Shown piece by piece: positions 13,448 through 38,988 of a DNA stretch of 64,000 nucleotides. The first letter of the stretch is position 1; the number at the start of each line of letters is the position of its first letter. This DNA comes from Lachnospiraceae bacterium NK4A144. Its GTDB lineage: Bacteria; Bacillota; Clostridia; Lachnospirales; Lachnospiraceae. The notes under the pieces are model-generated. The model made no database searches and was not told the origin of the DNA. It was given only the letters and a program-made list of their open reading frames with translations. The DNA lies in contig AUJT01000001.1 in the NCBI GenBank assembly GCA_000424365.1, positions 124,001 through 188,000 of the forward strand. The letters run 5' to 3'. The translations under genes were made by a program, and so were the position numbers.

Positions 13448-15241
13448 ATGGCAGAGTATTTACATCCGGGCGTATATACGGAAGAATACGACTCCGGCGC
13501 AGTGCCGATGCAAGGCGTCAGCACAAGCACAGCAGGGTTTATCGGACTTGCAGAACGCGGTACAGTGGTTGGAGCTCCGCAGTTTGTGACCAGCTTTGCT
13601 GATTACAAGAGAATTTATGGAGGATATTTAAGTGATGCCAGATATGGCGATGCAAGATTCCTTCCATACGCTGTAGAGCAGTTTTTCCTGAATGGTGGTT
13701 CCAGAGCATACATCATGAGAGTAGCTCCTGATGATGCAAAGGCATCAGCCGGAGATCTCGGCGTGCTTCATGCTGAGGCAGCTAACCCCGGTGAGTGGGG
13801 TAACCGCATCAAGATCACTGCTGTTCCGTCGTCAAAGGCAAAGACACAGGTTTTCTCTGCTACAGGTGCAGACCTCACCGTAAAGAATCCTGACGGATTC
13901 AATGCAGGTGATGTAGTAGAGCTCTTTGACGGAAGCAAGAAAGCTTATGCAACAGTTAAGTCAGTTATGGACAAGACTGTTACTTTGGAAGCAGCTCCGA
14001 CTGTTGATGTAGCAGATAAATCGATCGTCACACAGAAGTACATCCGTACCTGTGAAATAACGGTTACTGTTAAGATCGATGACACAGAAGAAACATTTGC
14101 TGATGTTTCCCTGAATCCTTTCGCTGCGAACTATATCGGAATCCGCGCTGAGAAGTCCGAGATCGTAAGCTTTAGCGTAAAGGCAGCAGGAGCTGCATCT
14201 GCTCCGGCACCTTCACCTTCACCTGATAAGGGCAAAGACGGTAAGGACGGCAAGGACAGCAAGCCTGCACCGGCTCCGGCTTCCGGAGGAGCTAATCCTT
14301 CACCTATCGCACAGCTTGGCGGAAATGACGCAGCTGTTTCTGTTACTCTGTCAGGCGGATCTGACGGTTCAACAGGAAAGATCACTCCTGATGTATATGT
14401 AGGTGCTGATAATGGTCCGGGCAAACGTACAGGGTTGCAGGCATTTATCGAGAATAACAATGTATCCATTATGGCAATCCCGGGTGTCACAGATCCTACA
14501 GTTCAGTCAACACTGATCGCTTTCTGTGAGAATAAGACCAGCTGCTTTGCTATCCTGGATATTCCTATCGACAAGAAGAAGGTTGATGAGATCTCAGCTT
14601 TCCGTGATATGTACGACAGCACCTATGCTGCTATTTATCATCCTTGGCTTGAGATGCTCGATCCGCTGCTTAAGCGCACAGCTTATTTCCCTCCGTCCGG
14701 CGCTATGGCAGGTATTTATGCAAGAGTTGACACCGACAGAGGTGTTCACAAGGCTCCTGCAAATGAAACTGTATCCGGATGCACAGGTCTTTCCTGCAAC
14801 TATAATGATGCTGAACAGGATATCCTGAACCCTATCGGTGTAAACCTTATCCGTGCATTCACAGGACGCGGAATCCGTGTATGGGGCGCAAGGACATTGA
14901 GTTCCAATGGACTTTGGAAGTACATAAACGTAAGACGTCTCTTCATTTATGTAGAGCAGTCCATCAAGAACAATACAAACTGGGTTGTATTTGAGCCTAA
15001 TTCCGAGGTGCTCTGGTCCAGAGTTACAAGGACGATCCAGTCCTTCCTGGCAACGTGCTGGAGAGACGGCGCACTTGCCGGAACAGCGCCTGAGCAGGCT
15101 TATTTCGTAGAGTGCGGACCTACGACAATGACACAGGATGATATTGATAACGGCAGACTTATCTGCAACATCGGAATCGCACCTGTTAAACCTGCTGAAT
15201 TTGTAATCTTCCGCATTACGCAGAAGACCGCTTCAGAATAA
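13448..15241 (+). CDS. Contractile injection system sheath protein (Pvc2-4/Afp2-4 type)
   Basis: A 597-residue sheath protein that polymerises around the inner tube and contracts to drive it outward. The N terminus has the sheath signature LHPGVYTEE and VSTSTAGFIGLAERG. The C-terminal third carries the strongly conserved sheath core (VRRLFIYVEQSIKNNTNWVVFEPN, PEQAYFVECG), which supplies the interlocking arms. Residues about 246-285 form an inserted Pro/Ala/Gly segment with GKDGKDGKD repeats, probably a flexible surface loop. Only one sheath gene is present, whereas Afp/PVC loci have three. It is the first structural gene, followed 52 nt later by a tube gene. Confidence 0.96.
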   Translation: MAEYLHPGVYTEEYDSGAVPMQGVSTSTAGFIGLAERGTVVGAPQFVTSFADYKRIYGGYLSDARYGDARFLPYAVEQFFLNGGSRAYIMRVAPDDAKASAGDLGVLHAEAANPGEWGNRIKITAVPSSKAKTQVFSATGADLTVKNPDGFNAGDVVELFDGSKKAYATVKSVMDKTVTLEAAPTVDVADKSIVTQKYIRTCEITVTVKIDDTEETFADVSLNPFAANYIGIRAEKSEIVSFSVKAAGAASAPAPSPSPDKGKDGKDGKDSKPAPAPASGGANPSPIAQLGGNDAAVSVTLSGGSDGSTGKITPDVYVGADNGPGKRTGLQAFIENNNVSIMAIPGVTDPTVQSTLIAFCENKTSCFAILDIPIDKKKVDEISAFRDMYDSTYAAIYHPWLEMLDPLLKRTAYFPPSGAMAGIYARVDTDRGVHKAPANETVSGCTGLSCNYNDAEQDILNPIGVNLIRAFTGRGIRVWGARTLSSNGLWKYINVRRLFIYVEQSIKNNTNWVVFEPNSEVLWSRVTRTIQSFLATCWRDGALAGTAPEQAYFVECGPTTMTQDDIDNGRLICNIGIAPVKPAEFVIFRITQKTASE

Positions 15242-15293: not shown

Positions 15294-15779
15294 ATGGCTA
15301 TTAATTATCCGTATAGAGTCTTTCGGTACCAGGTAGAAATCGATGGAATTGCTCGTGCAAGTTTCTCCGAGGTATCCGGAATGAATCTCGCAACCGCAGT
15401 CGTTGAATACCGTGAAGGCGACGACTTAAGGAATACACCACGTAAACTGCCGGGACTTACAACTTTCGGCAACATTACACTCCGTTGGGGGACTACTACT
15501 GATGTAGACTTCCTGGACTGGGTTCATTCGGTAGCTCCGAATAATGAAGCAGGACCGGTAGGTCTGGTTCGTCATGATATTGTCATCACACTGTTTGATG
15601 ATGCCGGCGGCGCTAATGGTCCGGTTTGGACTCTTATCAATGCATGGCCGGTAGGCTACAACATTCCGGATCTTTCCGGTCTTGGTAATGAAGTGGCTAT
15701 CGAGTCGCTTGAAATCTGCCATGAGGGTATCTGGAAAACAACCGCAGGCGCTGCTGCCGGAACACCTTCACCGATCTGA
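15294..15779 (+). CDS. Inner tube protein 1 (gp19-like, Afp1/Pvc1 type)
   Basis: A 161-residue T4-gp19-like tube protein forming the hollow inner tube through which cargo or the spike is expelled. Typical features are YRFxVEIDG near the N terminus (here YRVFRYQVEIDG), FSEVSGMN, a central beta strand block (LTTFGNITLRWG) and a C-terminal strand (EVAIESLEICHEGI). Of the three tube-like genes in the locus this has the canonical length and follows the sheath directly. It is therefore the best candidate for the major tube subunit. Confidence 0.94.
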   Translation: MAINYPYRVFRYQVEIDGIARASFSEVSGMNLATAVVEYREGDDLRNTPRKLPGLTTFGNITLRWGTTTDVDFLDWVHSVAPNNEAGPVGLVRHDIVITLFDDAGGANGPVWTLINAWPVGYNIPDLSGLGNEVAIESLEICHEGIWKTTAGAAAGTPSPI

Positions 15780-15859: not shown

Positions 15860-16243
15860 ATGGGGAGAGTACAAATGCAGACTGAATTTGAATTTGAGCT
15901 TCCGAAAGGATATGTCGATCCGTCGGGAGAGGTACATAAAACAGGAAAAATGAGACTTGCAACGGCAGCAGACGAGATTCTGCCGCTAAGAGATCCGAGA
16001 GTACAGGCAAATTCTTCATATTTAACGATCATATTACTTTCAAGAGTGATCACACAGCTCGGAACACTTCCGAAGGTGTCAAATCAGATAATCGAGAATC
16101 TGTTTACGATGGATCTTGCATATCTGCAGGATTTTTATCAGAGGATAAACATGAAGGAGATGCCTTCATATAAAGTAACCTGTCCGGAGTGCGGAAAAGA
16201 GTTTGAGGTTCCGCTGGATTTTTTATTGAATCAGGGCTTGTAA
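15860..16243 (+). CDS. Small tail-assembly/baseplate-like protein; zero-frame product of a likely -1 frameshift gene
   Basis: A 127-residue protein of the type found after the tube gene in injection-system loci (MQTEFEFELPKGYVD, LATAADEILPLRDPRVQ, YLQDFYQRIN). It resembles T4-baseplate-like or phage tail-assembly small proteins. A CPEC pair near residue 110 may bind metal. I take ATG 15860, with AGAGG upstream; ATG 15875 with GGGGAG is also possible. Seven codons before its stop lies the slippery heptamer T TTT TTA (16219-16225) in the correct phase. A -1 shift there would extend the protein by 64 residues into the DUF6760 frame. The short form would then be the abundant product and the long form the minor one. 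Confidence 0.88.
   Translation: MGRVQMQTEFEFELPKGYVDPSGEVHKTGKMRLATAADEILPLRDPRVQANSSYLTIILLSRVITQLGTLPKVSNQIIENLFTMDLAYLQDFYQRINMKEMPSYKVTCPECGKEFEVPLDFLLNQGL
16219..16225 (+). promoter_or_regulatory. -1 ribosomal frameshift site (T TTT TTA)
   Basis: The heptamer is in the zero frame as GAT TTT TTA, exactly the X XXY YYZ arrangement. Five nucleotides later a possible nested stem begins: TCAGG (16231-16235), an inner GCT-TGTA-AGC and CCTGA (16252-16256). The zero-frame stop is at 16241-16243. Confidence 0.7.
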
Positions 16244-16419
16244 GCTATCCACCTGACAGGCTCTATGAAGAGATGGCATTTCTCGCATATTATCTGCATT
16301 GGAATCAGGATGATCTCATGAATATGGATCATAGGGAAAGGCGCAGATGGTGCAGAGAGATATCGCTCATTAACAGAAAACTTAGTGGAGAAGATAAAAA
16401 CAGGATTGAATTTAAGTAA
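16225..16419 (+). CDS. DUF6760-type small protein, read as the -1 frame extension
   Basis: This 64-codon frame encodes the DUF6760 pattern found in extracellular contractile injection loci: YPPDRLYEEMAFLAYYLHW, then MDHRERRRWCREISLINRKL. The frame is open from 16207 but has no ATG, GTG or TTG before the conserved YPPDRLYEE start and no ribosome site. The first ATG would remove the conserved N terminus. The -1 slip at 16219-16225 joins it in phase to the preceding gene, giving a fusion of about 186 residues. Its job is probably in tail assembly, by analogy with lambda GT, which bridges chaperone and tape measure. Independent initiation at an ATT codon (16225) is the alternative. Confidence 0.8.
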   Translation: MESGLVSYPPDRLYEEMAFLAYYLHWNQDDLMNMDHRERRRWCREISLINRKLSGEDKNRIEFK

Positions 16420-16429
16420 GGGTTAAAAT

Positions 16430-16960
16430 ATGCCAGATGCAGAACTTTTGCGTTCCTTTAGATTTAGAGTGACGCTTAGCGGAGAAGGATATACAAAGGA
16501 TGGAGAGAGCGAGCCGGAGGACGCTGCTTTTTCCGAATGTTCCGGTATAAGGGTTGTGAATCATGTTCTCCGTATGCGAAGCGGAGCTGATGAACGCGGA
16601 GCGCAGGGAGTAGTTCCGGCTACGGTTGAGTACAGCAATCTGACGTTGACTCGCGGAGTTACATTCGGCAACCGGTTCCTTGACTGGGTATTTAGCTGTT
16701 TTCCTACATTTGAGGGAGGCGCAAATGAAAAAAAGGCAGTCAGGAAGACAATACATATAGTTGTCCTTACGGAAGAAGGTAAGGAAGGCGTTGCCTGGGA
16801 TCTTTACGGCGCTTATCCGGTTTCTTATTCCTTGGGAAATATGAGTTCATTAAATAGCGGAGTACTTATGGAATCGATCGAATTTGCTTATTCGGGGTTT
16901 GAAAGACGTGCTCCGGGTGAAGAGGAATTAAAAAAGAAATTGGCTAGTAATAATACTTGA
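16430..16960 (+). CDS. Inner tube paralogue 2 (gp19-like, Afp5/Pvc5 type)
   Basis: A 176-residue gp19-like protein. It has FRFRVTLSGEG at the N terminus, FSECSGIRV, the strand block VEYSNLTLTRGVTFGNRFLDW and the C-terminal MESIEFAYSGF. It differs from tube protein 1 by a longer N-terminal loop and a Lys/Glu-rich tail (EEELKKKLAS). In Afp/PVC the second and third tube paralogues form the tube end and the tube-to-baseplate adaptor, and the same role is inferred here. It starts 11 nt after the DUF6760 stop. Confidence 0.9.
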   Translation: MPDAELLRSFRFRVTLSGEGYTKDGESEPEDAAFSECSGIRVVNHVLRMRSGADERGAQGVVPATVEYSNLTLTRGVTFGNRFLDWVFSCFPTFEGGANEKKAVRKTIHIVVLTEEGKEGVAWDLYGAYPVSYSLGNMSSLNSGVLMESIEFAYSGFERRAPGEEELKKKLASNNT

Positions 16961-17062: not shown

Positions 17063-17521
17063 ATGCAGGAACAGAAAGTAACTGAAAAATATGTTTCCGG
17101 TGCCTATTTTGAAGTTTCGTTTGGAGTTATTGGAGGTATTGTCGGAGCTTTATCGGGGCTAAGCGGCAGATTTACTTCAGTAAGCGGTTTGGGAATGGAA
17201 GTCAGCTATCAGACCTATTACGAGGGTGGATCAATGGCACCGAATTTTCTGCTGGATAAAGGTGTACCACAGAGACTGGTACTGGAACAGGGAACGGTGA
17301 CAGACACAGACTCATTTGCCATGTGGATGAAGCTCGTAAATTCCGGAATGAGCATCTCGATGGACGGAGAAATAACCTTGAAGGATGCAGCAGGCAGAAA
17401 AGTCAGGTCCTGGAGCATAAACAGTGCGGTCCTTGTAAGTTACAGCGGACCTGTACTAAACAGTAATTCGCCATCGTTGGCAGTTAGTAGAATAGAATTC
17501 ATGTATGGAGGCTGCACTTGA
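17063..17521 (+). CDS. Inner tube paralogue 3 (gp19-like initiator/adaptor)
   Basis: A 152-residue third gp19-like protein. It has the N-terminal strand GAYFEVSFGVIGG, the FTSVSGLGMEVSYQTYYEGG block and the closing strand SLAVSRIEFMYGGC. The segment between strands is hydrophobic and glycine-rich (VIGGIVGALSGLSG), unusual for a tube subunit. It probably sits at the baseplate end of the tube, as Afp5-type proteins do. Its stop overlaps the TTG start of the giant repetitive protein by 4 nt. Confidence 0.85.
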   Translation: MQEQKVTEKYVSGAYFEVSFGVIGGIVGALSGLSGRFTSVSGLGMEVSYQTYYEGGSMAPNFLLDKGVPQRLVLEQGTVTDTDSFAMWMKLVNSGMSISMDGEITLKDAAGRKVRSWSINSAVLVSYSGPVLNSNSPSLAVSRIEFMYGGCT

Positions 17522-20500
17522 GAGAAGACGGTTCTATCGCAATGACAAAATTAAATATGTCAGTGGTCGACAGGAATCGTCTTATTAGTCCTGAGGCACT
17601 GCTCGTGGAGAGCTTTACACAGCAGATACTGGACAGAGTAAGGGGAAATCAGAATTTTTTTCCGTATGAGGAACTTGAGTTTCTGGATGAGTCTCAGGAT
17701 GAAGAAAATAAAAGTGAAGCCGTGACCGAGATCAATCTGAGCTACGATCTGACTTTTGAGATGGTCGAAGCTCATCTACATGCGCTTGAAAATGAAGCAG
17801 GAAAGCTCACTCACGAAGCGCAGGAAATCCTTAGCAGAGCGGATATGGTTATCCGCGAAAGTGAAAAGAACAGTAAGAGCGGAATAAGTAGTAAAGATAG
17901 CATAGATAAGACTGCTTATATAGAGCGACTTAATGAAGTTTCAAAAGAACGGCTTCGTCTGATCCATGAAAGACAGAAAGTCATAGCTTCAGAAAAGCGC
18001 ATACTGGAGCGAAGCCGGACAAATCTTGAAAATAATTCGAGGTATAGTGTTTCGCCTTCGGTAAAAAGAATACTGGAATATAAAAAAGCGGAGGAGAAAA
18101 GAACCGGAGGAAGAAATAATGAGAGTAATACTGGAAATAACAGAACTTTAGATAATTCCAAGAGTTCAGTAAAAAATATAACTAACGATGATACATATAA
18201 TAATGTATCAGTAAGTGATAGAAAAATTGATAATACCTCTGCAATTCACAGAGATGAAGTACAGAGGATCAACCTAAATTCGTCAGGTGATGAGCAAAAA
18301 AATGTAACGGTTCCATTAGAGAATATTCATGAGCTGAATAGCGGAATAACTTCGACAGACATCTCGTTTGAAACAAAGAAGGAATCGTTTCCGACTGAAT
18401 TTTCGCATGAAGTGCAGACGGTAACTAATCCGTTGGAAATCACGCATGAAATGCAGACAGTAACTAACCCGTTAGAAATCACGCATGAAATGCAGACGGT
18501 GATCGATGCGTCATCAGAACTGTCTCCTGAAATGCTGGCGGCATACTCACCGGAAGAACTGATAAATCTTGAGATGCAAAATTTTTCTCAGGATGATGGA
18601 TTAAGTGTAAAACGTGGCGAAAGTAGAAATACTGAAATAGATAGAAAAAGTCACGGAAATGCTTTGAGAGGCTCGATTAAAGGAAAAGAGTTCGTTAGCT
18701 CAAAAAATACCGTAGACTCAGATTATATAAGGAATGATAAATCCGTTGGAAATAATATAAATTCGGATATTTCAAGGAGTAAAGCAGATAATAGATCCAA
18801 AGAAAATCAAAATGCAAGTATTCAGAAGCAGAAGGAATCTGAACACTTACATACAAACTTTAACGCATCAGTAAGTGGTGGAAGTATTGATAGAACTTCA
18901 ACAACTGATATACCTTCCGAGAAAATTCGCAGTACATCACACGAAAGAGAGAATTTATCAACTAATAAAAACTCATCTGAGAATGAACAAAAAAATGCAG
19001 ATGATATAAGAACCAAAGATGTAAGAAGCACTTCGTCAGAGCATTACGATGAGTCGAAAAAAGTAAATATTTCGTCAAAATATTCAGATGAGACGAAAAA
19101 CGTAACTGCTCCGTCAGGATATTCAAATGAGATGAAAAGCGTAACTGCTCCGTCAGAGTATCCTTATGAGACGAAAAGCGTAAATGTTCCGCCAGAGTAT
19201 TTCAATGAGACTAAAAACGGAATAGCTACGAAAGATATCTCTAATGAAATAAAGAAGGGGATGTCTACGATAACTAATCCCTTGGAACTTTCTCATGAGA
19301 TGAAGACAATGACGGATCCGCTGGAACTTTCTCATGAAATGAAGACGGTGACAGCTTCGTCAGAATTATCTCATGAAATGAAGACGATGAACGCTCCGTC
19401 AGAATTGTCTCCTGAGATGTTGGCAGCATACTCGCCTGAAGAACTGGTTAATCTTGAGATGCCGGAGTTTTCTCAGAATGATGCCGGCTTGAGTGTGAGA
19501 CGTGGAATAGATAGAAATATTGGCACAGATCGATATATGCGTGAAAACACTCAAGGATATTCACTTCATGGAAATGCGTCAGATAGTTCAAAGAGTTCCG
19601 TAAATTCGGAATTTATAAAGAATAATAAATTCACCGGAAATAATAGATCCGAGGATATTTCAAAAGATAAAGCAAATAATACACCTAAAGAAAATGCAAA
19701 TGTAACTATTCAGAAACAGAAGGGGTCTGAACGGTTACATAGGAACTCTAATTTATCAATAAGTAGTGAAAGTACTGATAAAACTATAACAACTCATACG
19801 CCTTACGAGAAAATACGCAGTACATCTCACAGAAGTGAAAGTGATAGAAAGAAATTATCAGATGATAAAAAATCATCTGATAATGATCAAAAAAATGCAG
19901 ATGACAGAAGAACAAAAGATGTAAGAAATAGCATTTCGTCAGAGCATTCTCATGAGATGAATAATGGAATAACTTCGTCGGATATCTCACATGAAACAAA
20001 GAAGAAAGCTTTCCCGACAGAGTTTTCACATGAAATGACAACGATAACTAACCCGTCAGAACTTTCTCATGAAATGAAGATGATGACAGATCCATCAGAG
20101 CTTTCCCCGGAAATGCTGGCAGCATACTCACCGGAAGAACTGATAAATCTGGAGATTTCGGATAGGGTTCAGGATGAAGATGGATCAAATGCGAGTGGTC
20201 GATCAAATGCGAGTGGTCGGTCATATGCAAACGTTCGGTTAGATGCAAACGTTCGATCAGATGTAAAGGGTAACAGAAACACATCTGGAATTCGTTCAAA
20301 TTTTTCAAATATCACAGAACTTCTGAAGGGGCTTGAAAAGGAAAACGCAGAAGTAAAGAGCGATGATAAAGCGGATACGGGAAATAAAAATAAGAAAATA
20401 GAATCATCAGTCCGTGATATCACCATCCGTGAAGCCCAAAAGCAATATGAACTGCTTAAAGAGAAGTTACCGGAAAAGTTTTTATCTGAGATTGGTGACT

Positions 20501-21483
20501 ATGGACCGACAGAGTTAAGTAATCTTGTCATAGAGCATGAAGAAAAAAACGATCCTTCATTGACAAGAAATCATAGTAAAAAGAGTTCGGATATTTCGTC
20601 TAGAGATAGCATCAATAGCAATAATAGAGAATACAGTACAAATAGCGTTACGGATAGAGATACGTTAGTGAGGGGGTCAAACAATAACAAATCATCAGAG
20701 CGTATGGAAAGTTCAAAAAGACCAGATAACATACAAAATATACGCGACCAACATTCATCTATCGATACTGAAATCTTAAAGAAGCTATCCTCTTCAAAAG
20801 ATATATCCGGAGTAATTCTTCTAAAAAAGGGAAGCATTGGACACAATGTTCAAAAAAATGCAGGAAGGATCGGAATGTCAGGTGGCATGACGGTAAAGCT
20901 TCTACAACCAATGGAAGCACAGGCAATACAGCAAAAGATCAATGGAGATACACAGGTGCAGTACGTACCCATTGCGATGGACTACGGTACTTCATATCCG
21001 GATCTCTTAAAAAGCATGATAGACAAAGAGATAGAGACCGGAGCACATAGACCCATGAGAGATATCGTACAGAACAGAAACTCAAGTACCTCTGCTGACA
21101 AGTTCATAAGGGGTGAGGTTGAGGAAGTAACCGTGGATGATACGCCTGCGATGACAACCTGGAATAATCCTATGACAAACAGAGCCGGAGGAAGCATGCA
21201 GACTCTCGCAAATCGCAGCATGAATACTCTTCATGCGGATGAAGCTGTGAGACAGGCAATGGAAAATCCGGTGAATTGGGTGAATCCGGCATTTGCAGGA
21301 TACGGTGCGCCGGAGAGTCTGACATTTAAGAATAACGGAAATATCGGAGACGATCAGTCAAAGCCGCAGCAAAGAAGAGAAGCAAGGATCAGTGAAGCAG
21401 AGATCAGGCGCACAGCCGATCGGGTATTCAAGATGGTCGAAGAACGTATCCGTAAGGAACGACGCAGGATCGGACGTATTTAA
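17518..21483 (+). CDS. Giant repetitive low-complexity protein of the injection system
   Basis: A 1321-residue protein beginning at TTG 17518, chosen because GGAGG lies 6 nt upstream. The N terminus (about 1-190) is ordered and helical. Residues about 190-960 are Ser/Asn/Lys/Asp-rich and contain long internal duplications. The C-terminal 250 residues are conserved-looking and end in a strongly basic helix (EIRRTADRVFKMVEERIRKE). Proteins with a variable middle and such a terminal helix occur in other eCIS loci between the tube and LysM genes; their role is not settled. It has no TM segment. It could be a length ruler, a tether or a scaffold. Base composition is AT-richer than the neighbours. 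Confidence 0.75.
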   Translation: MREDGSIAMTKLNMSVVDRNRLISPEALLVESFTQQILDRVRGNQNFFPYEELEFLDESQDEENKSEAVTEINLSYDLTFEMVEAHLHALENEAGKLTHEAQEILSRADMVIRESEKNSKSGISSKDSIDKTAYIERLNEVSKERLRLIHERQKVIASEKRILERSRTNLENNSRYSVSPSVKRILEYKKAEEKRTGGRNNESNTGNNRTLDNSKSSVKNITNDDTYNNVSVSDRKIDNTSAIHRDEVQRINLNSSGDEQKNVTVPLENIHELNSGITSTDISFETKKESFPTEFSHEVQTVTNPLEITHEMQTVTNPLEITHEMQTVIDASSELSPEMLAAYSPEELINLEMQNFSQDDGLSVKRGESRNTEIDRKSHGNALRGSIKGKEFVSSKNTVDSDYIRNDKSVGNNINSDISRSKADNRSKENQNASIQKQKESEHLHTNFNASVSGGSIDRTSTTDIPSEKIRSTSHERENLSTNKNSSENEQKNADDIRTKDVRSTSSEHYDESKKVNISSKYSDETKNVTAPSGYSNEMKSVTAPSEYPYETKSVNVPPEYFNETKNGIATKDISNEIKKGMSTITNPLELSHEMKTMTDPLELSHEMKTVTASSELSHEMKTMNAPSELSPEMLAAYSPEELVNLEMPEFSQNDAGLSVRRGIDRNIGTDRYMRENTQGYSLHGNASDSSKSSVNSEFIKNNKFTGNNRSEDISKDKANNTPKENANVTIQKQKGSERLHRNSNLSISSESTDKTITTHTPYEKIRSTSHRSESDRKKLSDDKKSSDNDQKNADDRRTKDVRNSISSEHSHEMNNGITSSDISHETKKKAFPTEFSHEMTTITNPSELSHEMKMMTDPSELSPEMLAAYSPEELINLEISDRVQDEDGSNASGRSNASGRSYANVRLDANVRSDVKGNRNTSGIRSNFSNITELLKGLEKENAEVKSDDKADTGNKNKKIESSVRDITIREAQKQYELLKEKLPEKFLSEIGDYGPTELSNLVIEHEEKNDPSLTRNHSKKSSDISSRDSINSNNREYSTNSVTDRDTLVRGSNNNKSSERMESSKRPDNIQNIRDQHSSIDTEILKKLSSSKDISGVILLKKGSIGHNVQKNAGRIGMSGGMTVKLLQPMEAQAIQQKINGDTQVQYVPIAMDYGTSYPDLLKSMIDKEIETGAHRPMRDIVQNRNSSTSADKFIRGEVEEVTVDDTPAMTTWNNPMTNRAGGSMQTLANRSMNTLHADEAVRQAMENPVNWVNPAFAGYGAPESLTFKNNGNIGDDQSKPQQRREARISEAEIRRTADRVFKMVEERIRKERRRIGRI
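18397..20157 (+). repeat. Internal tandem duplications in the giant protein gene
   Basis: The block SELSPEMLAAYSPEEL ends three repeat arrays, at about 18510-18575, 19399-19464 and 20092-20157. Each is preceded by short SHEMKT(M/V)T-type units. The long segments between blocks 1-2 and 2-3 are diverged copies of each other (shared GLSVxRG, ENxNxxIQKQK, EKIRSTSH and QKNADD-R-TKDVR), implying an old duplication of roughly 0.7-0.9 kb. Confidence 0.85.
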
Positions 21484-21513
21484 CACCGGTCTGATGATAA
21501 GGAGGGATTGCCT

Positions 21514-22242
21514 TTGTATGCAGGATCCGGAAATTTGAATATGGATACGCCGGTCAGGAAAATGAAGATCACAAACATGATCACGAAGAAAAAATTCTAC
21601 GTGGAATACAATCCTACGACATATCAGTTATCAAAAAATGCAGAGTTCGGTATGGATCCGGCGTTTGATTCTGATACTCCGGCGGTTCAGTTTACTTATG
21701 GTACAGTTGAGACCTTGTCGATGCAGCTGTTCTTTGACAGCTTTTCAACAGGTGTAAAAAATGCCCCATCGGTAGCGGATGGATTGAAACTCAAGGGATC
21801 ACAGGTAGTAAATAGTTTGGCAAAGTTTTTTGATGTGCGGGAGCTGACAGATAAGGTCTACGGCCTCATGCAGATAGAGCCAAGCGCACATATCCCTCCG
21901 CTTGTAAAGGTTGAATGGTCGAGTTTGCAGTTTGAAGGGTTCTTAAAAAGCTGCAACGTGAACCTCATAAAGTTTTCAGATATGGGCATACCGGTTAGAG
22001 CGACCATGGATTGTGTATTTTTCAGATTCACAAAAATGGGTGCAAAGGTAAAGATGAATCCCTTTGGCTCACCAGATACTGCTAAGTTCAGAACTATTGA
22101 ACAGGGACAGTCACTATGGTCATACGCATCCTCCGAGTACGGTGATCCCGGACAGTGGAGAGCTATCGCAGAAGCAAATAACATCAGCAATCCAAGGATA
22201 CTTAGAAGCGGAAAGATGATCAGAGTGCCTGCGATCGAATAG
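21514..22242 (+). CDS. LysM-domain baseplate protein (Afp7/Pvc7, gp53-like)
   Basis: A 242-residue protein joining tube hub and baseplate wedges. The N-terminal two thirds carry the family pattern (EYNPTTYQLSKNAEFG, LSMQLFFDSF, VKVEWSSLQFEGFL). A C-terminal LysM domain (TIEQGQSLWSYASSEYGDPGQ ... SGKMIRVP) covers residues about 192-242. In phage and eCIS this domain mediates protein contact within the baseplate, though peptidoglycan binding is possible. TTG 21514 has GGAGG at 8-nt spacing, while TTG 21508 is too close to that site; ATG 21541 is a further option. Confidence 0.92.
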   Translation: MYAGSGNLNMDTPVRKMKITNMITKKKFYVEYNPTTYQLSKNAEFGMDPAFDSDTPAVQFTYGTVETLSMQLFFDSFSTGVKNAPSVADGLKLKGSQVVNSLAKFFDVRELTDKVYGLMQIEPSAHIPPLVKVEWSSLQFEGFLKSCNVNLIKFSDMGIPVRATMDCVFFRFTKMGAKVKMNPFGSPDTAKFRTIEQGQSLWSYASSEYGDPGQWRAIAEANNISNPRILRSGKMIRVPAIE

Positions 22243-35925: not shown

Positions 35926-38900
35926 ATGTTTGAGAGTATTTTCAGACAATTGATACAGAGTTTCGGCGTAGTATTCCGTACGATGCGCGCATTCTTCATG
36001 AGATTTCTGACGAGTATCGGAGCCAGGATCAGAAGTATGACCAGTGTTACGAGGTATGCTTCACAGATAGGCCCCAAGGTACTGGATGCGGCGGCATCTA
36101 CGGGAAAGAAACCTGCGAAAAAAGAAGACTATATCGAAACCGGCAGCCTTCTTATATCAAAGTCTTTGATCATAACGGTATTATTAGTAATAATCGTTGG
36201 AACTATTTTTATGATCACTATAGGATGGCCTTTTATCGTCAGCACTTTTCTGACAAAGCATATGTGGAATGAGGATCCGAAAGTAAAAGGCTATTCCGGT
36301 AAGGTCATTATTTACTATGATGAAAAAAAGAAAATGCCGGAGTTTAAAGGACGCCTTAAAGACGGAAAAAAGATCAAAGAGGGAACCGAATACGATATGA
36401 ATAACCGTGTAACCTTTCAGGGACACTATGAAGACGATGTTTACAGTGGTTATGGAGAAGAATCGGTTGGCGGGATCGTGGTCTACAAGGGAAACTTTGC
36501 AAATGGTAAATATGAAGGTGAAGGAATTCAGAGAGATGAAAACGGGTTTCTAAAGTATGAGGGAACTTTTTCAAATGGAGAATATGAGGGCACAGGTAAG
36601 GTCTATGAAATGGACGAGCTGGTCTATGAAGGGGAATTGTCCAAGGGTCTTTATGAGGGAAAAGGAAAGCTCTACAAAGATAAGATACTTGTCTATTCCG
36701 GATCATTCACCGCAGGTGAGTATGACGGATTTGGAAAACTCTATGAGGATGGAGAAGTGGTATATGACGGATCTTTCTCGTCAGGGGTAAAGTCAGGAAG
36801 AGGTGTTGCGTACAAAAAAAAGCACATGATCTATAAGGGAGACTTTGAGGAAGATACCTATAACGGAACAGGTGTTGCGTACAATGATAATGGAATACTC
36901 GTCTATAAAGGAGGATTTGTGGACGGTCTGTATTCCGGATCAGGTTCTCTGACGTTAAAAAACGGTGAAGTCATAAAGGGAGAATTTGAAGCCGGAAATA
37001 TCATTGGAGATGCAAAGTGCTTTAAGGATGACAAGCTTTTTTATGAGGGCAGTCTCGATGGTAATCTTCCTGATGGCAGTGGAAAACTATACAGCAACGG
37101 AAACCTCGTATATGAGGGACCGATAAACGGAGGTACGGTTGACGGAGCAGCACTCCTCGGAATGAGCTATGAGGATGTGCAGAGTGCATTTCAAAATGGC
37201 GGCAGGAGATACCTTTATGAAGATTCATTTGCACTGCAGCTGCCAAAACTTGGTACAACGGTAGTATTTTCGCTCGCGACGGATGATGAGGATCCCATGG
37301 TTACGGATGTATATATATATGATCCGCAGTCAGCTACAGATCTGGATCTCATGGAATGGAAAACTCCGGAGGACTACGCGAAAGCTGTAAGCGATGAGAT
37401 CGCAGAGGGGATAACGGTCCGCAAGGTAAAAGTCAAGCAGGATGCACTTTCTATAAAAGAGATCCCTGCAAAATACAGTTCGGCTGATTACTATGTGCCT
37501 TTTGTGTCAGATCACAGCATTCTCCGATTCTGGTATGAAGACACTACAGACGAAGTAGTTTTTTATCAGTGGACTGCAAACAGTGGAGATTCTTTGCTGG
37601 ATAATGAAGAAGAGGAAGTTAATGGCGCGGAAGAACGTGTCGAAGCGGTTCTCGCAAAGATCGGTATAGATATTAATGATGATGAATCAGGCAGCGGAGA
37701 TGCAGCCGGCGGAGCAGATTCCGGTGGAGCGGGAGCCGCAGCAGGTGGAGCAGGAGCAGACGCAGGCGGAGCAGACGCCGGAGGATCGGCAGCCGCAGCA
37801 GCGGCAGGAGCAGACGCAGGTGGAGCTGTTGCCGCAGCAGCCGCAGCGAGCGTAGTAGACGCAAGTGGCACCGGAGCTGCAGCAGGTGGAGCAAAGGCAA
37901 GTGTTCCCCAGAATCCATATTATGGTACAGCAAAAGTTGATGACCTTATAAGCAAGGCAACTCCTAAAGACCGTCATAAGGTCTTAAAAAAACTCATTAC
38001 ATACTACAAAGCAGCAGAACATGCTTCTGCAAATGCAGAGCAGACAGAAGCGGTACAGGAATCACTGGAAAAAGCCATATCTGATAATTCTATGGGTGAC
38101 GATAGCTACGACCGCATAAGAGAACTAAAAAAGACCGAGCGTAAGCTGAAACTCAACACAGTCAAAGAAGAAACTGATATGTCACAGATTTTTAATGAGA
38201 TTAACGGTCTGACTTATGGCGGAAACGCATCCGGAGCAGACCTGAGCTCTCTTGCGGTTTATTTTGACGCATCTAATATCGATAAGGAAGCACTGGCGAA
38301 AGCAGGTCTGGATGCAGCACTTAAAAAGACAGCGGAACAGCATGCCGCAGACATGGAACGTTATCAAAAAAATTCACAGGAAACAATAGAAAATTTCAAG
38401 AAACTCGCAGAGGAAAAGGGTTATCACGTCTTTGATGATATAAGTGATGGATACGACGACGATGATGATGATGACGATATAGAAGTCTCAGATGGCGAAG
38501 ATGACACACAATGGGCATATAGCGACGACGCACTGGGATTTGCCGAGGAACAGTCAGACCGATTGCTGTATATGCTCATCCAGTCGATGAAGACAATGCA
38601 GGAACAGGGACAGCCCCAGCCCGGCGAGATAGATGAACATGGACTATACCGGCTTCTTCAAGATGAACTCATACAGCTGCAACTTGCCGGATTAAATATT
38701 CAGGATGCTATCGATGACTACAAGGATGCAAAAAAGCATGCAGAGCGTGTAGAGAAGAAGCATTCACTCGGTGATGCAGATGAAAAAGATGTAACGGATG
38801 CAAAGGTAGATGTGGTAAACACAGTTACTGCACTAAATAACAACATTATTTCCTTTGCGGAAGTTGCGGCAGATCTAAATGAGATGACAGACGGTTATAT

Positions 38901-38988
38901 CGCACGAACCTATAACTGGCATGCGGATTGTTTCCCGGATGAAGAGACACTGGCAGCTGCAGCAGCGGAAACTGCCGTGGCTCAATAG
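35926..38988 (+). CDS. Membrane-anchored MORN-repeat protein with Ala/Gly linker and TolC-like helical tail
   Basis: A 1020-residue protein. An amphipathic, Arg-rich N terminus precedes one TM helix at about 80-105. Residues about 163-410 hold ten or eleven MORN repeats (YEGTFSNGEYEGTGKV type), which bind lipids or proteins. A beta domain follows to about 570, then an Ala/Gly/Asp-rich linker (588-660) and a helical region. An Asp run lies at about 841-850. The final 110 residues resemble the helical pattern of TolC-family proteins (AIDDYKDAKKHAERVEKKHS, then LNEMTDGYIART). No such protein is part of known Afp/PVC particles. It may anchor or frame the machine at the membrane. Confidence 0.7.
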   Translation: MFESIFRQLIQSFGVVFRTMRAFFMRFLTSIGARIRSMTSVTRYASQIGPKVLDAAASTGKKPAKKEDYIETGSLLISKSLIITVLLVIIVGTIFMITIGWPFIVSTFLTKHMWNEDPKVKGYSGKVIIYYDEKKKMPEFKGRLKDGKKIKEGTEYDMNNRVTFQGHYEDDVYSGYGEESVGGIVVYKGNFANGKYEGEGIQRDENGFLKYEGTFSNGEYEGTGKVYEMDELVYEGELSKGLYEGKGKLYKDKILVYSGSFTAGEYDGFGKLYEDGEVVYDGSFSSGVKSGRGVAYKKKHMIYKGDFEEDTYNGTGVAYNDNGILVYKGGFVDGLYSGSGSLTLKNGEVIKGEFEAGNIIGDAKCFKDDKLFYEGSLDGNLPDGSGKLYSNGNLVYEGPINGGTVDGAALLGMSYEDVQSAFQNGGRRYLYEDSFALQLPKLGTTVVFSLATDDEDPMVTDVYIYDPQSATDLDLMEWKTPEDYAKAVSDEIAEGITVRKVKVKQDALSIKEIPAKYSSADYYVPFVSDHSILRFWYEDTTDEVVFYQWTANSGDSLLDNEEEEVNGAEERVEAVLAKIGIDINDDESGSGDAAGGADSGGAGAAAGGAGADAGGADAGGSAAAAAAGADAGGAVAAAAAASVVDASGTGAAAGGAKASVPQNPYYGTAKVDDLISKATPKDRHKVLKKLITYYKAAEHASANAEQTEAVQESLEKAISDNSMGDDSYDRIRELKKTERKLKLNTVKEETDMSQIFNEINGLTYGGNASGADLSSLAVYFDASNIDKEALAKAGLDAALKKTAEQHAADMERYQKNSQETIENFKKLAEEKGYHVFDDISDGYDDDDDDDDIEVSDGEDDTQWAYSDDALGFAEEQSDRLLYMLIQSMKTMQEQGQPQPGEIDEHGLYRLLQDELIQLQLAGLNIQDAIDDYKDAKKHAERVEKKHSLGDADEKDVTDAKVDVVNTVTALNNNIISFAEVAADLNEMTDGYIARTYNWHADCFPDEETLAAAAAETAVAQ

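Follow-up and report, generated by a model that had tools for sequence, protein, structure and literature searches.

A programmed -1 frameshift very probably joins a tail assembly chaperone (TAC) to DUF6760 in an extracellular contractile injection system (eCIS) of Lachnospiraceae bacterium NK4A144, which would thereby make the chaperone and a TAC-DUF6760 fusion as the counterpart of the phage proteins gpG and gpGT. The slippage and its efficiency are inferred. The window, which is the whole stretch of 64,000 nucleotides that was analysed, is part of a 466-kb contig from a 4.1-Mb genome, and the junction elements and the sheath, tube and CIS tube/LysM genes given below lie on its forward (+) strand. 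According to the proposed mechanism, some of the ribosomes on the chaperone gene would slip back by one base at the heptamer T TTT TTA (from TTT TTA to TTT TTT) and read on in the -1 frame into DUF6760, so that a single message would give rise to the TAC of 122 amino acids and to a smaller amount of the fusion of 181 amino acids. Tandem slippage in the window would result in the junction peptide ...PLDFLIESGLVSYPPDR..., and the ratio of the two products presumably matters for assembly. A -1 frameshift between a tail-assembly protein and DUF6760 was already proposed in the preliminary description of this DNA, and the proposal is supported by conserved in-phase heptamers, by the scarcity of starts and by the chaperone profile.

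The junction and its eCIS locus

The slippery heptamer T TTT TTA is found at 16219..16225 in the phase of the 0-frame, where the codons GAT (16217), TTT (16220) and TTA (16223) form the exact X XXY YYZ pattern. Direct reading confirms this phase, which had been claimed before, and places the TTT seven codons upstream of the chaperone stop TAA (16241..16243). The -1 frame is open from a TGA at 16204-16206 to a TAA at 16417-16419 (16207..16419), and the 64 codons that are gained by the shift (16225..16416) contain DUF6760 (PF20546) with three predicted helices (mean pLDDT 84.9). With 52.4 bits (cut-off 27) and E 5.6e-14 for this domain, the frame indeed reads straight into DUF6760, as was stated from the start. 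The window DUF6760 query has a 100% match in a record of Lachnospiraceae bacterium MC2017. The further statement that DUF6760 lacks any ATG, GTG or TTG is correct for the region before the conserved YPPDRLYEE, but not for the inside of the domain, where in-frame ATGs occur, the first of them at 16273; as these lie past YPPDRLYEE, they are unable to start the whole domain. The frame beyond the chaperone stop is clearly coding and under selection. In an alignment of 50 rows, its third positions are the most variable (1.22 vs 0.62 and 0.34 bits); the rows of this alignment were picked for AAATTTT, and the invariance of the heptamer therein exists by construction.

The upstream protein is identified as a tail assembly chaperone by its profile and more weakly by its predicted fold. 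The tail assembly chaperone family phrog_508 is matched by 57 of 59 family members, with E 9.6e-9 for the window protein, and the predicted fold has a middling structural match to YqbN (3klu) and to the HK97 tail assembly chaperone (2ob9). A plain Foldseek search with the chaperone model returned zero matches at E 0.001, and a search of PDB sequences with the chaperone profile gave no match. The gene (15875..16243) probably starts with the ATG at 15875, which follows an SD-like GGGGAG (15862-15867) and has an ATG at the matching place in relatives, although the start assigned to each relative was by design the ATG that made the product closest to 122 residues long. With this start, the chaperone has 122 residues and the predicted fusion 181; the previously given length of about 186 residues fits the ATG at 15860, which is the less likely of the two starts. 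The C-terminus of the window TAC (16181-16195) contains a half zinc-ribbon CPxCG motif that is common to many Bacillota relatives, and several proteobacterial relatives have no CPxCG and possess a C-terminal LGEA instead.

Profile matches reveal that eCIS genes are present together in this region. They comprise the sheath protein (13448..15241; PF04984, PF17482), three gp19-like tube proteins (15294..15779, 16430..16960 and 17063..17521; PF06841 with E 1.1e-37, 1.9e-25 and 4.3e-16, respectively), the CIS tube/LysM protein (21508..22242; PF19266, E 8.9e-24), base V, gp25, two baseplate J proteins, Pvc16 and an AAA ATPase. The TAC gene is located directly after a gp19-like tube gene, with the two other tube genes downstream. 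A low-complexity ORF of 1321 amino acids (17518-21483) separates the third tube gene from the LysM tube gene; it has a TTG start and SHEMKTVT-like repeat units and gave no Pfam or NCBIfam match. The Nostoc and Streptomyces records contain a long unnamed protein in a similar place. A further ORF within the eCIS cluster (35926-38988; 1020 amino acids) carries MORN repeats.

Heptamers, starts and G runs in other loci

Carriers of DUF6760 were collected from overlapping sets of genomes of the same family (39 of 397), class (16 of 391) and phylum (13 of 398), and together with 63 named loci and 17 plasmid records they resulted in 146 loci. TAC and DUF6760 are both present in 145 of these, and in 140 of the 145 DUF6760 lies in the -1 frame of TAC. 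This relation alone is not diagnostic, since a coupling of the ATGA type leads to the same relation. A locus without match (L054), five loci outside the -1 relation (L053, L066, L069, L126 and L143) and others that were repeats or failed the distance check were dropped, which left 132 distinct junctions, 100 from Bacillota and 32 from non-Bacillota. Two candidates for a natural in-frame fusion of TAC and DUF6760 were rejected, as the DUF6760 frame of L053 follows a TAG and is very short, and the two ORFs paired in L143 are distant from each other.

It had been suggested to compare the junction in other eCIS loci for a conserved slippery site, and such a site is indeed present: 87 of the 100 distinct Bacillota junctions carry an in-phase heptamer 3-8 codons upstream of the chaperone stop, although these are not independent events because the loci are related to one another. 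The heptamer is A AAT TTT in 71 junctions, T TTT TTA in 10 and T TTT TTG in six, and as a control the same three heptamers were found at 8 of 15,438 in-frame positions further upstream in the homologous chaperone ORFs. All three are absent from the other 13 Bacillota junctions and from all 32 non-Bacillota junctions. In a later sample, 392 genomes were drawn from the order; 30 of them have DUF6760. They provided 22 junctions, and 21 were used because L153 is a repeat. Thirteen of these have A AAT TTT, three T TTT TTG, one T TTT TTC and four a G run, so that one of the three heptamer forms is found in 16 of the 21, with the T TTT TTC junction in addition. A tree of the 132 rows gives eight changes among the A, T and G junction classes, which is a rough figure as the tree has long and weakly placed rows. 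L056, L060 and L063 each have AAATTTTTTG, which contains both heptamers.

As alternative to the frameshift, a coupled termination and reinitiation has to be considered, in which the ribosome would restart on a weak -1 codon overlapping the chaperone stop and DUF6760 would be made as a separate protein. We think that this is unlikely. From the point where the DUF6760 frame opens up to the YP motif, 60 of the 87 heptamer loci do not have any ATG, GTG or TTG; such a codon follows the heptamer in 11, and in five it overlaps the stop or comes one codon later. At the chaperone stop, the overlapping codon is NTA and not NTG in 80 of the 87 loci, which argues against a restart at this place. Of these 80 loci, 63 have TAA as their stop, where a single A-to-G change would give NTG while a stop is kept. 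A restart would also leave the synonymous conservation of the heptamer unexplained. The coupling is nevertheless favored by several individual loci. An ATG at the overlap accompanies A AAT TTT in L161 and L164 (2 of the 16 heptamer junctions in the later sample), L149 has a GTG at the overlap, and L010 has one immediately upstream of YP that is preceded by a G run. In L010, the -1 frame stays open for about 50 codons from T TTT TTG to YP, compared to seven in the window; the excess is about 43 codons, and L040 shows the same feature. Because of the GTG just before YP, these extra codons of L010 are not proof of a shift.

Coupled reinitiation gains further support from the 45 junctions without one of the three heptamers. 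A GGGGG is found within 30 nucleotides before the chaperone stop in 42 of them (13 Bacillota and 29 of the 32 non-Bacillota), and in all such junctions except L139 the run lies 7-11 nucleotides upstream of the stop. An ATG, GTG or TTG overlaps the stop or comes one codon later in 18 of the 45, which derive from 17 non-Bacillota bacteria and the archaeon Haloferax. A coupled initiation suffices for these 18 junctions, and the slippery device therefore appears to be lineage-specific and not a property of DUF6760 as a whole. The preliminary description had set against the frameshift the case of a DUF6760 with its own start and no slippery site, and this case is realized in these 18 junctions, whereas 87 of the 100 Bacillota junctions have the heptamer. 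No start is seen at either of these two places in the other 27, Nostoc among them, and the annotation of the Nostoc record, in which the DUF6760 CDS begins at an ATA codon, is in line with a restart on a weak codon. An ATA or CTA at the overlap behind GGGGG is observed for the DUF6760 ORF in L067 (8004-8174), L068, L072 and other non-Bacillota loci.

The G run might be a ribosome-binding sequence or a slip sequence. In release factor 2, GGGGG represents an SD-like element that is at times GGAGG instead (PMC5009743), and GGAGG near the stop occurs in one of the 45 junctions. An in-phase G GGG GGA is found in three of them (L068 from Rhodococcus, L081 from a worm-associated bacterium and L139 from Embleya), and T TTG GGG in two (L044 and L059). 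It can be imagined that recoding at the junction is near-general in DUF6760 eCIS across phyla and that the G run itself slips, be it at G GGG GGA, at T TTG GGG or with a single tRNA at NNG GGG GAN, in which case Clostridium-like bacteria, cyanobacteria, actinobacteria and others would make the fusion as well. We regard this extension as tentative and rather doubtful; if it were true, the slip motifs would include one that departs from the standard tandem-heptamer type. Among junctions whose DUF6760 tails are alike, TTTTTTGGGGG is present in L152 and L156, and L163, L165 and L166 have no start and retain nothing but the G run. In the Bacillota junction L149, the T run is interrupted (TTC TTG) and the GTG stands at the overlap. 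To judge from their sequences, these junctions could be a natural series that leads from a slip site to a separate start.

With regard to stimulators of the proposed shift, a stem was said to begin five nucleotides downstream of the heptamer, and this has to be revised. The best predicted stem (16233..16264; 16233-16241 paired with 16256-16264) starts after seven unpaired nucleotides, and its z of -0.37 is not better than chance, as judged against shuffled sequence. No pair with a two-sided change was detected downstream in 26 aligned A AAT TTT relatives. Downstream of the A-class heptamers there is a mild excess of stability over the control windows, with a mean z of -0.96 vs -0.23 in each of two control windows. 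Upstream of the window heptamer, a GAGG (16205..16208) is a weak SD-like element and a possible stimulator. In the 87 heptamer loci, the mean anti-SD pairing upstream of the heptamers is -5.2 kcal/mol vs -2.9 kcal/mol in control windows, and this stronger pairing may be explained by Glu-Val-Pro codons.

Identity of DUF6760 and codon choice at the proposed slip site

A second alternative accepts the fusion and concerns the domain that is added by it. DUF6760 could represent the eCIS spike plug (Alg6/Afp6/Cis6), and what the fusion delivers would then be a structural plug rather than a chaperone domain. DUF6760 is small and is encoded within the tube-gene neighborhood, and the assembly of AlgoCIS needs the plug (PMC8894135), which would all be compatible with this role. 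However, a search of PDB sequences with the DUF6760 profile gave no relevant chain at E up to 1, its sole hit being an antibody chain (0.47), and the three helices of the DUF6760 model do not resemble the strand and helix by which Alg6 is described (PMC8894135), a comparison that is made at the level of descriptions. We therefore consider a plug to be very unlikely, and the preferred view is that of an added chaperone domain. The predicted fold of DUF6760 had no convincing structural match, no PHROG family was matched, and searches gave no match for DUF6760 in the phages collection and none for its close relatives in viral_contigs.

The codon choice at the putative slip site was evaluated for the last ten chaperone residues of 159 distinct junctions that were taken without selection on the heptamer. 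Where Asn-Phe occurs in this stretch, it is encoded as A AAT TTT 85 times out of 87 vs 48 of 422 elsewhere in the same loci, and a run of six T encodes Phe-Leu 22 times out of 27 vs 64 of 814 elsewhere, with stop-to-stop ORFs of at least 120 codons as the control, some of which may not be genes. The two exceptions for Asn-Phe are a T TTT TTG junction (L045) and a G-run junction (L165). Four of the five exceptions for Phe-Leu carry A AAT TTT, and the fifth is L149 with its GTG start at the overlap. A synonymous-codon expectation of 9.5 of 85, which covered only loci preselected for the heptamer, is superseded by this unconditioned test. The residues themselves can swap, from Lys-Phe to Phe-Phe and from Asn-Phe to Phe-Leu, and the slipperiness is retained. 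That the heptamer is a mere by-product of overlapping coding constraint (Asn-Phe / Lys-Phe) without any recoding is hardly credible: both frames are constrained and Lys-Phe is common in the -1 frame, but the Asn-Phe codon choice is far off the background, the swaps keep the slipperiness, and DUF6760 would be left without a canonical start in most heptamer loci.

Relation to phage tail chaperones

We judge the probable eCIS frameshift to be a variant of the known phage G/GT device that is new in eCIS. That frameshifting had not been described for contractile injection systems agrees with a search of the open-access literature, in which no such description was found for eCIS. In the phage system, the partner of the G part is the tape measure and that of the T part is the tube protein (PMC5009743). 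By analogy, the TAC might coat a length-measuring or hub protein and DUF6760 might recruit tube subunits. Lambda gpG/gpGT and the wider frameshift device of phage tail assembly chaperones (reviewed in PMC5009743) share with the proposed eCIS device the slip site near the 3' end of the chaperone gene, the -1 shift, the added C-terminal domain and the location beside tube genes. The two systems differ in that one belongs to a phage and the other to an eCIS host, in that DUF6760 is without PHROG or phage match, and in that no tape-measure gene was found adjoining the TAC/DUF6760 junction of the window.

If the frameshift is true, a domesticated phage-tail machine would have retained or re-evolved a set of two chaperones whose ratio is set through ribosomal slippage, and DUF6760, so far an unexplained family, would gain a function that can be tested, namely that of the domain added to the chaperone. 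This may account for the observation that the DUF6760 ORF is unannotated or has odd starts in some records. The carriers are gut bacteria with a phage-tail-like injection machine, in which one message apparently yields a short chaperone and a longer one, and this points to a control step in eCIS assembly. The natural junction types, i.e. A/T heptamers, G runs and ATGA overlaps, would constitute a series between a recoding site and a separate gene.

Similar to what is proposed for the eCIS proteins, P2 E/E' and Mu 41/42 (Pfam Phage_TAC_7) are chaperones of contractile tails with recoding. The slip site of phage P2 E/E' is T TTT TTG, which is also among the eCIS forms. The Mu 41/42 chaperone uses a -2 shift (PMC5009743). 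PF10109 is matched only by a Pseudanabaena relative (E 5.6e-5, 23.5 bits, cut-off 25) and by one of the 59 family members (E 0.0063), and the window TAC has no match to it at E 0.01. The middling fold matches noted above place the TAC beside the HK97 chaperone and YqbN, and with T4-like tail assembly chaperones it shares the contractile tail and a weak similarity to PF12322 T4_baseplate (E 0.079). These T4-like chaperones reportedly use a mechanism other than frameshifting, to go by the title of Vladimirov et al. 2022. As far as this title tells, the non-Bacillota eCIS junctions may be closer to the T4-like mechanism than the window junction is.
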